Source: a virus | IMG/VR virus record: IMGVR_UViG_3300025233_000047 | Span: 1 to 45,612 of that record | Strand: one strand, 5' to 3' | DNA: 45,612 nt | In this document: one piece after another, positions 4,863-38,633 of the stretch | How positions within the stretch are numbered: position 1 is the first letter of the stretch | Layout: each line of letters opens with the position of its first letter | Program-made: the position numbers and the translations under genes | Notes under the pieces: model-generated | What the model saw: the letters and a program-made list of their open reading frames with translations, nothing else | Told to the model about the DNA's origin: nothing | Databases searched by the model: none

Positions 4863-6080
4863 TCATTTTATGCTTTTCATCAGTGCGCTGAACTTCGAAC
4901 TGGTATCTTTTTTTCTACTCTTGGTCACATGCAAGTATACCGTTTCAGTCGTCGTATCATCTTTGTGTCCCAAGCGATCCATGATCTCATGTAATTCGGC
5001 TCCAGCTTCAGCAAGTAGTGATGTATGCGTATGACGTAATGAGTGCGGCGTCAGATTCTCATCCAAGTTACACAGTTTTAGCAGCCTGTTCATTCTCCAG
5101 TTGATAAATTGATGCATTTCCGGGTATCCAGGTGTTCTGGAAGCTTTGGCGATCACAAAGTCCTTATCGTGATAGGTGTCCCTGAATCGCATCTTCGTTT
5201 CACTCTGCTGCTTCTTATGCGTTTTTAATACCTCAATGACTTCTGGTGCTACATTGATTGTTCGGCGCGAAGTTGCTGTCTTTGGCGTTAAGAGCGTGTA
5301 GTCGGTTGCATTATTCTTCGGGTTATACAGTGTTTTCGTGATGGATATCTCATGGTTATCGAAGTCTATGTCTTTCCATTTGAGCGCGCACAGTTCTCCG
5401 GCACGCATGCCTGTATAAGAGAGTAGGGTAAAAATGACATAATCTCGTTCTAGCCCTTTTACTTCAGCGGTATCCAAGAACAGTTTTAATTCCTCTTTTT
5501 CTAAATACTTCACACCCTCTTCAGCTGACTCCAGATCTTCAACAGTCTTTTGTTCCTTTGGGATATATGAGAATTCAGTGGGATCTTTCTTAATTACATT
5601 CATTTCAATCGCCTTCTTAAAGATCATCTTCCCAGTCCGATGTGTTCCGACCAATGTGTTATGCTCATATCTGTTTTCGGATTTCATGGAGTAAAGCATT
5701 TCTTGATATATGTTTAGTGTGATGTCCTTCATTTTGTAGAAGCGTAAATACTTCAACAATCGATTGATTTCTGTTTTCCTCAGGTCAACCGTGCTTATTT
5801 TCACCTTGCCCGATCCGCTGTACGCTTTAATCCAAGTTTCCGCAAATTCTTCAAAGCCAATATCTTTCTCTTCTACATAGGTGCCTTGCTTTAATTCAAT
5901 CAATAGATTGGCAGCATGTAGCTCAGCTTCAGCCTTTGTCGCGAATCCACCTTTCTTTTTCTGCTTCCGTCTACCATTGGCCGGATTGATCCCTACATCG
6001 ATCATATATGACCAGGTGGCGCTACACTTACACTTCTTCGTGGTGCACTTACAGTGCGGCTTGTAAAAGTGTCCTTTCAT
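4863..6080 (-). CDS. int: Tyrosine-family phage integrase
   Basis: This 405-aa site-specific recombinase catalyses integration and excision of the prophage. The catalytic set is visible: Arg226 (TGMRAGEL), His346 and Arg349 (HSLRH), His372 (RLGHKDD) and nucleophile Tyr382 (TVYLHV). A SAM-like core-binding domain covers about residues 70-165. The N-terminus is unusual in carrying CKC...CKC, a possible metal site in the arm-binding domain. The frame is open 20 codons further upstream, but only the ATG at 6080 has a ribosome binding site (AAAGGAG, 9 bases away). The gene faces outward to the left prophage end, as usual for int. Confidence 0.93.
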   Translation of the reverse strand: MKGHFYKPHCKCTTKKCKCSATWSYMIDVGINPANGRRKQKKKGGFATKAEAELHAANLLIELKQGTYVEEKDIGFEEFAETWIKAYSGSGKVKISTVDLRKTEINRLLKYLRFYKMKDITLNIYQEMLYSMKSENRYEHNTLVGTHRTGKMIFKKAIEMNVIKKDPTEFSYIPKEQKTVEDLESAEEGVKYLEKEELKLFLDTAEVKGLERDYVIFTLLSYTGMRAGELCALKWKDIDFDNHEISITKTLYNPKNNATDYTLLTPKTATSRRTINVAPEVIEVLKTHKKQQSETKMRFRDTYHDKDFVIAKASRTPGYPEMHQFINWRMNRLLKLCNLDENLTPHSLRHTHTSLLAEAGAELHEIMDRLGHKDDTTTETVYLHVTKSRKKDTSSKFSALMKSIK

Positions 6081-6130
6081 GGTTGCCGACTCCTTTCGAC
6101 GTTTTAATAGGATTGTAATCGAAGTGATAG

Positions 6131-6152
6131 AAAAAAGCACCCAGAAGGGTGC
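6131..6152 (-). terminator. Intrinsic terminator between membrane gene and integrase
   Basis: On the minus strand GCACCC-TTCT-GGGTGC is followed by six T. It lies after the stop of the membrane protein gene and just before the integrase start, separating the two transcripts. Confidence 0.8.
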
Positions 6153-36537: not shown

Positions 36538-36558
36538 CTATTGCAAAGGAGTGAGATC

Positions 36559-38238
36559 ATGGCGGTATACGAAACAACAGGAACCGTGGTTCAGCCTGCA
36601 ATGGGCGCGGGCGCTGTGCCAACACCGAAGACGACAACTCCGACATCCACCCAGAACATTGCACAACAGTCGCAACAAGTACAGAACCCAGTGCCGGCCA
36701 GCCCATCCAGCTTGTACAACATCGGCGTACGTCAAGCACTCAATGGCATGGGCGTGGACAACAATCGGATTGGATATACCAACGGATATGTTACCATCGA
36801 CGGTCAAAACATCATTAGACCGCAGGTGAACGCAGGTGGTAACACATACACGTCACAGGGAAACCTCAACTCTATTCAGGGCCAGGTCAATCAACTCAAC
36901 CAATCCAACAGCATCATGAACCGTGTGACGAACCCGCAAGATACGGTAAACCCGTTTGATACGCGGATATCTGATGTGCTGACACAGCTCACGCAGGGTA
37001 TCAACAACCCAGCTTCATATGATCCGTATTCTTCAGCAGAGTACGCTGCATACCAAGCACAGGCGCAGAGGCAAGCGCAACAGGGTATACGTACCGCGCA
37101 GGAGTCACTTGGGGCTTCCGGCTTGGGGCGTTCATCCATCCTTTCAGACCGTGCACAAGGAATCCAGAACGATGCGAATGAGTACATGCAACTACAGGTC
37201 ATACCTCAATTGATCGCGGCCAATCAAGCAGCAGAGCAGCAGAAGCTAGGCAACTTGTCGAACTTGATGGGGTTAATGTCCAACCAACAAGCGACGTATG
37301 ATACACGAGATCAGAATAACTTTAACAATTCATTCAATGTGCTGGGATACTTGGCAGATCAGAACCAATTGAAACTGGACAACTCCCGAGCGGATGCAGG
37401 ATTAACCGGAAACTACTTGACTCCAGAAGCCAGAGAGCTGATGAACAGCCTACTTGGGTTGAAACAACAAGCTGAGACGAAGGGAATTACGAAGGATGCG
37501 CGTGCTGGACTGAGCAGTCAGGCCGATGGTATCCGGGATCAATTGAGTATGTTGGGCGTTGATACATCACAACTTGGTGCCAATACTTCATATGCAAATG
37601 CCAGCAAATCTGGTGTTGGACGAACCATCCAAGGACAAGCGCTTGACCAACAAATTCAAGGACAACAGTTTGATCAAGGTATGCAGACTAGGCAGCAGGA
37701 CTTTGTTGAGAAGCAAACGGGTGTTGAGAATAACTTCCGTAGCGAAGAAAATGCGTTCCGCGCAGAACAATTCGCATACTCCAAAGCTCGTGATGCCGTG
37801 GCAGATAGCCAATGGAATGCAACATTCCAGTACAACATGGAACAAGGCGGGTTAGATTACGCCCTGCGTGTACTTAAACAACAGGACGATTCAACTTACC
37901 AGAAAGCTATGCTGGCGATTAACCAGGATGAAAACTCTCGTGCTTGGCTTGGACTGGGCAGCGCACAACCGGCTGAGTACAACGGCATGAATGCTAATCA
38001 GGTGTTGAGTGCATTGCAGTCACAATACATCGATCCGACCACAGAGAAATATGCCGCGCCGAAAGATGCAGCAACACGAGAACAGATTTATCAGCAGGTA
38101 GCTGGATACGGTCTGCCACAGGGACAGGACGATCAAGTCATGCTCTCCATGGGATTGACCACGAAAGAGATTCAGGAATTTGATAAGAAGTACATTCAAC
38201 CATCAGCTGGCACGGGAGCAGCATCAGCGGGAAAGTAG
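36559..38238 (+). CDS. Gln-rich ejection/internal virion protein
   Basis: This 559-aa protein is very rich in Gln, Asn, Ser and Ala, with helical segments (SSAEYAAYQAQAQRQAQQGI, SLGASGLGRSSILSDRAQGI), typical of podoviral ejection proteins. The start has AAAGGAG. Its last codons GCG GGA AAG TAG contain a slippery heptamer, so part of the product should continue into the transglycosylase frame to give about 691 residues. It would travel in the head and enter the cell with DNA. Confidence 0.78.
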   Translation: MAVYETTGTVVQPAMGAGAVPTPKTTTPTSTQNIAQQSQQVQNPVPASPSSLYNIGVRQALNGMGVDNNRIGYTNGYVTIDGQNIIRPQVNAGGNTYTSQGNLNSIQGQVNQLNQSNSIMNRVTNPQDTVNPFDTRISDVLTQLTQGINNPASYDPYSSAEYAAYQAQAQRQAQQGIRTAQESLGASGLGRSSILSDRAQGIQNDANEYMQLQVIPQLIAANQAAEQQKLGNLSNLMGLMSNQQATYDTRDQNNFNNSFNVLGYLADQNQLKLDNSRADAGLTGNYLTPEARELMNSLLGLKQQAETKGITKDARAGLSSQADGIRDQLSMLGVDTSQLGANTSYANASKSGVGRTIQGQALDQQIQGQQFDQGMQTRQQDFVEKQTGVENNFRSEENAFRAEQFAYSKARDAVADSQWNATFQYNMEQGGLDYALRVLKQQDDSTYQKAMLAINQDENSRAWLGLGSAQPAEYNGMNANQVLSALQSQYIDPTTEKYAAPKDAATREQIYQQVAGYGLPQGQDDQVMLSMGLTTKEIQEFDKKYIQPSAGTGAASAGK

Positions 38239-38269
38239 CCAGCCCCACATCCAACGGGACTGGTGGGGC
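38229..38269 (+). promoter_or_regulatory. Programmed -1 ribosomal frameshift site
   Basis: The heptamer G_GGA_AAG (38229-38235) is in the correct register of the upstream gene, directly before its TAG. Six bases later a stem GCCCCAC/GTGGGGC begins (38242-38248, 38263-38269), whose loop holds an extra TCC/GGA pairing. Heptamer, spacer and stem form a canonical -1 signal; lambda G-GT uses the same heptamer. The -1 frame is then open to 38633. Confidence 0.85.
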
Positions 38270-38633
38270 CCTTTCCTACAACAATTACTACAAAGCAGTG
38301 AAGGACGCGAAGGCCAACCCGAATAACTATGCTACAGCAAGCGCGGCAGTTAGTAATGCCATCAAAGCATTGGGATACCCCGATAGCTGGTTACAACCCG
38401 CGCTGGAGCTGGTAGCTAGGGAGTCCAGTTTCAACTCGAATGCGAAGAATCCTAAATCTACCGCAGCCGGGTTATTTCAGTTTCTGGACAGCACCCGTAA
38501 GAATTACGGAGGTAGCTCAGTGAACTGGAGCGATCCAAATCAGCAAGCGTTACAAGGATTGAAATATGTAAAAGATCGCTACGGCGACCCAGTTAAAGCA
38601 CTACAATTCTGGGACAAAAACAAGTGGTACTAA
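38235..38633 (+). CDS. Lytic transglycosylase domain, made as frameshift extension
   Basis: In the -1 frame the 132 residues after the shift read VASPTSNGTGGALSYNNYYK, then a soluble-lytic-transglycosylase-like domain: LELVARESSFNSNAKN (catalytic Glu), AAGLFQFLDSTRKNYG, and a closing VKALQFWDKNKWY. It cleaves peptidoglycan glycan strands, probably a hole for DNA ejection. The first possible independent start is GTG 38298, but no ribosome binding site precedes it, supporting production only as a fusion. Confidence 0.8.
   Translation, partial: VASPTSNGTGGALSYNNYYKAVKDAKANPNNYATASAAVSNAIKALGYPDSWLQPALELVARESSFNSNAKNPKSTAAGLFQFLDSTRKNYGGSSVNWSDPNQQALQGLKYVKDRYGDPVKALQFWDKNKWY

Follow-up and report, generated by a model that had tools for sequence, protein, structure and literature searches.

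A candidate programmed −1 frameshift signal that would append a lytic transglycosylase to a probable ejection protein in short-tailed phages of Paenibacillus and Bacillus

We describe a slippery heptamer, a stop codon and a stem at the end of a gene for a 559-residue phage protein (positions 38,229–38,269) that very likely form a programmed −1 ribosomal frameshift signal. As a whole, the evidence is best explained by a signal that appends a lytic transglycosylase to a probable ejection protein, a reading that comparative sequence analysis leads us to hold with high confidence. Short-tailed phages of Paenibacillus and Bacillus form a large family that appears to use such a slip at the end of an internal-protein gene.

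Results

The frameshift junction and its gene context

The window analyzed here is the whole IMG/VR virus record IMGVR_UViG_3300025233_000047 (45,612 nt, positions 1 to 45,612). It encodes an integrase, an anti-repressor, DnaD/DnaC-type helicase loaders, a terminase, an endolysin and a holin, as well as a P22/SU10-type portal, a Mu-gpT-like major head protein and a pectate-lyase-like tailspike among its structural genes, and this content therefore indicates a temperate short-tailed phage, the host of which is probably Paenibacillus. An NrdD-like anaerobic ribonucleotide reductase gene on the minus strand (507–2468), near the integrase gene (4863–6140), could be host flank of a prophage or a phage-borne copy. 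The structural region ends with the 559-aa ORF, the transglycosylase frame and the gene for a 1359-aa LPD38 protein, in this order:

36545–36551, plus strand: ribosome-binding site AAAGGAG of the 0-frame gene (from sequence)
36559–38238, plus strand: 0-frame gene, 559 aa, predicted helical, ATG start; sits between tail genes and the giant LPD38 protein
38229–38235, plus strand: slippery heptamer G_GGA_AAG in exact X_XXY_YYZ register; conserved in kind in relatives
38236–38238, plus strand: 0-frame stop TAG, immediately 3' of the heptamer
38242–38248, plus strand: putative stimulatory stem, 5' arm GCCCCAC (from position and compensatory changes in 38 loci)
38263–38269, plus strand: putative stimulatory stem, 3' arm GTGGGGC, after a 14-nt loop (same basis)
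38229–38633, plus strand: −1 frame extension, linker and transglycosylase, 134 residues counted from the slip site and ending at TAA (from the codon-position pattern in relatives)
38373–38585, plus strand: SLT lytic transglycosylase domain PF01464 (Pfam E 8.6e-9, 35.4 bits against a cut-off of 21.3)
38646–42725, plus strand: LPD38-domain giant virion protein of 1359 aa, which has a AAGGAGGT site of its own; common to Pagevirus

The final codons of the 559-aa ORF read GCG GGA AAG TAG, and the heptamer-to-stem spacer is TAGCCA (6 nt). Slippery register, stop, spacing and a 7-bp stem are thus all in place as the original prediction had described them. It had also seen a −1 frame open through a transglycosylase domain that has neither a ribosome-binding site nor a good start, and this holds as well: the frame runs to a TAA at 38631–38633, the SLT match lies above the Pfam cut-off, and the sole start codon among its first 40 codons, a GTG at 38298, is not preceded by a ribosome-binding site. 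The likely catalytic Glu (codon 38421–38423) lies in an RES motif that is kept in SLT-type relatives; a phmmer search with the SLT product returned no match.

Considered alone, the window stem folds no better than shuffled sequence (z −0.5 for 65 nt and −1.6 for 50 nt), and its significance rests on comparison with relatives. A terminator at this position was considered and rejected, as a pattern scan found no intrinsic terminator, and an Rfam search of the stem region matched no family.

Conservation of the slip site

Using the enzyme, the 0-frame protein and the giant protein as queries, scans recovered well over 100 related loci, overlaps included, in viral contigs as well as in Paenibacillus and Cohnella genomes. 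These were reduced to 59 non-redundant junctions, no two of which are more than 92% identical over 90 nt, and compared with a background of 690 other ORFs from the same loci. An X_XXY_YYZ heptamer in register was present within the last eight codons of 49/59 junctions versus 35/690 background ORFs (Fisher p = 9e-44), and directly at the stop in 39/59 versus 10/690 (p = 8e-41), p values to be read with the shared ancestry of the loci in mind, the events not being independent. YYY was AAA or TTT in 46 of the 49 heptamer-bearing junctions. The heptamer takes the forms GGGAAAC (26), GGGAAAG (10), GGGAAAA, CCCAAAC, CCCAAAA, AAAAAAC, AAATTTT and GGGTTTT; it is therefore slipperiness that is conserved, not one sequence. 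The last codon of the commonest form, G_GGA_AAC, is generally regarded as less slippery in E. coli, a point against the frameshift reading.

The remaining junctions carry GGGGGAG, GTTTTTCAG, GCTTTTCAG or unclear sites, with GGGGGAG- or TTTTC-type sites in about a dozen loci. We infer that GGGGGAG and NNT_TTT_C sites are better accounted for by one tRNA slipping in the P site than by the two-tRNA model; GGGGGAG would otherwise require the A-site codon to pair G-U at its second base. GGG GAG and a stop stand in place of GGGAAAN in L108, L114, L127, L128, L142–L144, L161 and L183–L188. In L035 (5650–5720), whose −1 frame is VgrG3-like, the 58-nt overlap holds no recognizable slippery site.

A conserved stem downstream of the slip site

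Stems of the GCCCCAC/GTGGGGC type begin 6 nt past the slip site in 38 loci, and homologue alignment, the check put forward with the original prediction, thus finds heptamer and stem alike conserved. In L137 (GGGAAAC CAA TAA), and likewise in L140, the stop has shifted downstream by one codon, yet the distance from heptamer to stem is still 6 nt. Compensatory pair changes comprise C-G to T-A (4 loci), A-T to G-C (9) and C-G to G-C (8), with non-pairs in 3/266 cells of the stem alignment. The arms were anchored on GCYYC and GGRGC, which leaves the upper two pairs, with most of the changes, free of selection by the anchor. Unrelated stems occupy the same place in L113, L148 and L167, and a clear stem is absent in L106, L126 and the Pagevirus type. 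Over the 59 loci, downstream folding has a mean z of −2.2. The conserved position and the covariation fit a structure that would stimulate the ribosome.

The fixed position also bears on whether the fusion could arise from transcriptional slippage by an RNA polymerase, be it that of the phage or of the host. A few relatives do contain stretches such as AAAAAAC or GGGGGGG, which could serve such a mechanism, but the main form, GGGAAAG/C, has no run of sufficient length and the fixed 6-nt stem position fits a ribosome, leaving polymerase slippage highly improbable.

The −1 frame is under codon constraint and has no start of its own

Downstream of the junction, differences between relatives number 685, 425 and 1940 at −1-frame codon positions 1, 2 and 3, and the −1 frame is therefore a selected coding frame. 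It always reaches back across the slip site; at several loci it is open just 10–16 nt upstream of the 0-frame stop, with the slip site inside that overlap.

Relatives in which the enzyme starts at its own ribosome-bound codon were the observation that, by the original prediction, would speak against a frameshift. In 58/59 loci the first 40 codons of the −1 frame hold no start with a ribosome-binding site, and many hold no start codon at all; L113 is a weak possible exception (a GTG with an SD-like stretch), and one locus, sampled as L018/L060/L174, is ambiguous, with AGGAAAGGAGGTGG after the stop. Together with the annotation of a separate gene at this place in the Bacillus phages Page, Pascal and Palmer (PMC3990757), these two cases are what favors a transglycosylase expressed on its own, by internal initiation or by re-initiation after the TAG, without any fusion. 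We consider this very unlikely given the general lack of starts and the invariable reach of the −1 frame across the slip site, even where the overlap is minimal; it would moreover leave the heptamer, the 6-nt spacing, the stem and the in-frame fusions described below unexplained.

Exchange of enzyme modules and in-frame fusions

Across 30 extensions, Pfam identified SLT (18), glucosaminidase (7), VgrG3-like C-terminal (6), NlpC/P60 (2), M23 (1) and M15 (1) domains, some extensions carrying two. Nearly all matches of −1 products are to wall hydrolases, and predicted wall cutting is thus what the unrelated enzymes behind one slip signal have in common. Sister pairs were taken to judge exchange, in a tree built by a quick method; a shuffle test of enzyme type over that tree was rejected as carrying no information, near-copies having been taken out before it. 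L021 and L095, with 0-frame proteins 88.9% identical, carry SLT and glucosaminidase, respectively, and L022 and L024 (87.4%) carry SLT and VgrG3-like domains; enzymes also differ within L129/L166 (91.2%), L118/L120 (91.6%) and L142/L143 (83.9% 0-frame identity). Modules in the place of the transglycosylase include a glucosaminidase-like domain (L023, 6290–6712), a VgrG3-like domain (L024, 6263–6886) and an M15 peptidase (L127, 6116–6439). A protein with about 51% identity to the L095 glucosaminidase module is found in the unannotated records of Listeria phages LM 4-14-1 and LM 4-11-1 (H81, H82).

In other relatives the two frames are continuous. In L015 and L145 a net change of one base, immediately past a relic GGGAAAC, unites them, and further in-frame fusions carry VgrG3-like (L062, L175/L176), SLT (L055/L181, L198) or M23 (L077/L180 and L182) enzymes. 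Within this family the fused protein is therefore an ordinary architecture, and loci whose frames are separate almost always have a slip site. L018 was rejected as an in-frame fusion; its enzyme lies in the −1 frame after TCT TTT CTC CCG TAG.

Neither enzyme nor shift is found in the Cohnella locus L165 or in L047, L050 and L054. In Cohnella nanjingensis (L123/L165) a relative of the 559-aa protein is followed directly by the giant gene, without enzyme or frameshift; a long −1 frame there was rejected as an enzyme extension because it is the giant gene itself, and the locus was counted as an absence.

L015 and L145 could also be taken to mean that a frameshift mutation or a sequencing error has split a continuous gene, leaving the short form as the only product. 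The split gene with a slippery site is, however, what isolates, genomes and metagenomes commonly show, its enzyme frame is under codon constraint, and enzyme modules have been replaced behind the site again and again, all of which makes accidental disruption scarcely credible.

Identity of the upstream protein

The 559-aa protein gave no match in PHROG and Pfam searches, none by tblastn in annotated phages and no meaningful match in an HMM search of the PDB with its family. Its AlphaFold2 model is all-helical with a pLDDT of 51, and the protein is Gln-rich and without tail-fiber features. An HMM search of the PDB with the giant protein as query likewise returned no meaningful match. On the basis of gene order, helical make-up and podovirus kinship, the 559-aa protein is probably an internal, ejected virion protein.

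A different assignment would keep the frameshift and make the upstream protein a component of the tail or tail tip. It draws on the failure of family and PDB searches to link the protein to any known ejection protein and on the name that the annotators of Page gave the enzyme, lytic tail protein (PMC3990757). The gene, however, follows the tail genes and directly precedes that of the giant LPD38 protein, a usual place of podoviral ejection genes, and its helical, Gln-rich product does not resemble a tail fiber; we regard a tail component as rather unlikely. Of the original prediction, the appended transglycosylase is thus strongly supported, by conservation, in-frame fusions and the absence of a start with a ribosome-binding site, and the ejection identity is plausible, with no family or structure match and an uninformative fold.

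Discussion

Proposed mechanism

In the mechanism we propose, most ribosomes would terminate the 559-aa protein at the TAG at 38236. The GC-rich stem 6 nt downstream would hold up a fraction of them over GGA AAG, where tRNA-Gly and tRNA-Lys could slip and re-pair on GGG AAA, and this presumed minority would continue in the −1 frame, giving a fusion product of about 690 aa whose C-terminal part is the lytic transglycosylase. If, as is probable, the 559-aa product is an ejection protein, each particle would hold plain and enzyme-tipped copies, assembled together as a mixture; the enzyme-tipped copies may cut through peptidoglycan as the DNA enters. Throughout the family the signal is kept, and unrelated wall hydrolases take the place of the enzyme behind it. 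We lean somewhat towards viewing the slip signal as a standing socket, which would fix the enzyme-tipped share per virion and accept wall-hydrolase modules exchanged to match the host wall, in-frame fusion being the rarer arrangement.

Comparison with known systems

The closest isolates are the Bacillus megaterium podophages Page, Pascal and Palmer (Pagevirus), which share the gene order and the giant neighbor, 47–49% identical over about 770 residues. At the end of their 417-aa gene, TCG GGT TTT CTG GGG TAG, G_GGT_TTT stands in register, and an open −1 frame passes the stop and continues into NlpC/P60 and SLT domains. Pagevirus differs from the window in its 0-frame protein, which is only distantly similar, in this two-domain enzyme, in having no clear stem and in being annotated as two genes. 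GenBank lists the enzyme as a separate 'lytic tail fiber protein' with a downstream start, which is probably wrong, and the Page paper does not mention a frameshift (PMC3990757). In these phages (L025, Bacillus phage Page, 8405–9325; L026; L027) the annotation likely splits a frameshift fusion in two.

The junction resembles lambda G/GT in its heptamer, G_GGA_AAG, in a −1 shift close to where the first ORF ends and in a C-terminal extension on part of the product. The G/GT product is, according to a review (PMC5009743), a chaperone absent from the virion, whereas the extension here is a wall hydrolase, a conserved stem follows the heptamer, and there are no tape-measure or tail-tube partners. 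The lambda gene context, between major tail protein and tape measure, is not that of the window, where no tape measure was found among the structural genes.

Programmed shifts in virion-protein genes that yield two protein sizes, as here, are found in T7 (gp10A/10B), A2 and PSA, where the extensions are structural. We know of none among these that is an enzyme, and of none in a podoviral internal protein.

Wall-cutting domains on podophage internal or ejection proteins, and domain swapping between such proteins, are a feature of T7 gp16 and the K1E/K1-5 gp15-like proteins, which carry a transglycosylase or lysozyme in frame (PMC8954989), and the function is therefore precedented; the route, as far as we found, is not. 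In the T7 gp16 and K1E type every copy bears the enzyme, whereas here it would be added by frameshift; no sequence similarity to T7 gp16 or to the K1E/K1-5 gp15-like proteins was found. The review PMC5009743 treats phage frameshifts in tail chaperones, capsid proteins and tail shaft proteins, and a search of its text gave no hit for transglycosylase, lysozyme, peptidoglycan or ejection. The open papers in PMC that were searched contained no description of a frameshift that adds an enzyme to an ejection protein; with the scope limited to open papers, priority is uncertain.

Implications

If this reading is correct, programmed frameshifting would have a new role in these phages, that of fixing how many entry-enzyme molecules each particle carries, and 'lytic tail protein' genes that have no start signal would be explained. 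Virion-associated lysins could then be found by reading the −1 frame past a slip site. The number of entry enzymes required by a podophage would become testable, as the dose should depend on the heptamer alone and the natural in-frame fusions would provide an all-copies control, and the Bacillus megaterium phage isolates make the idea testable at once.
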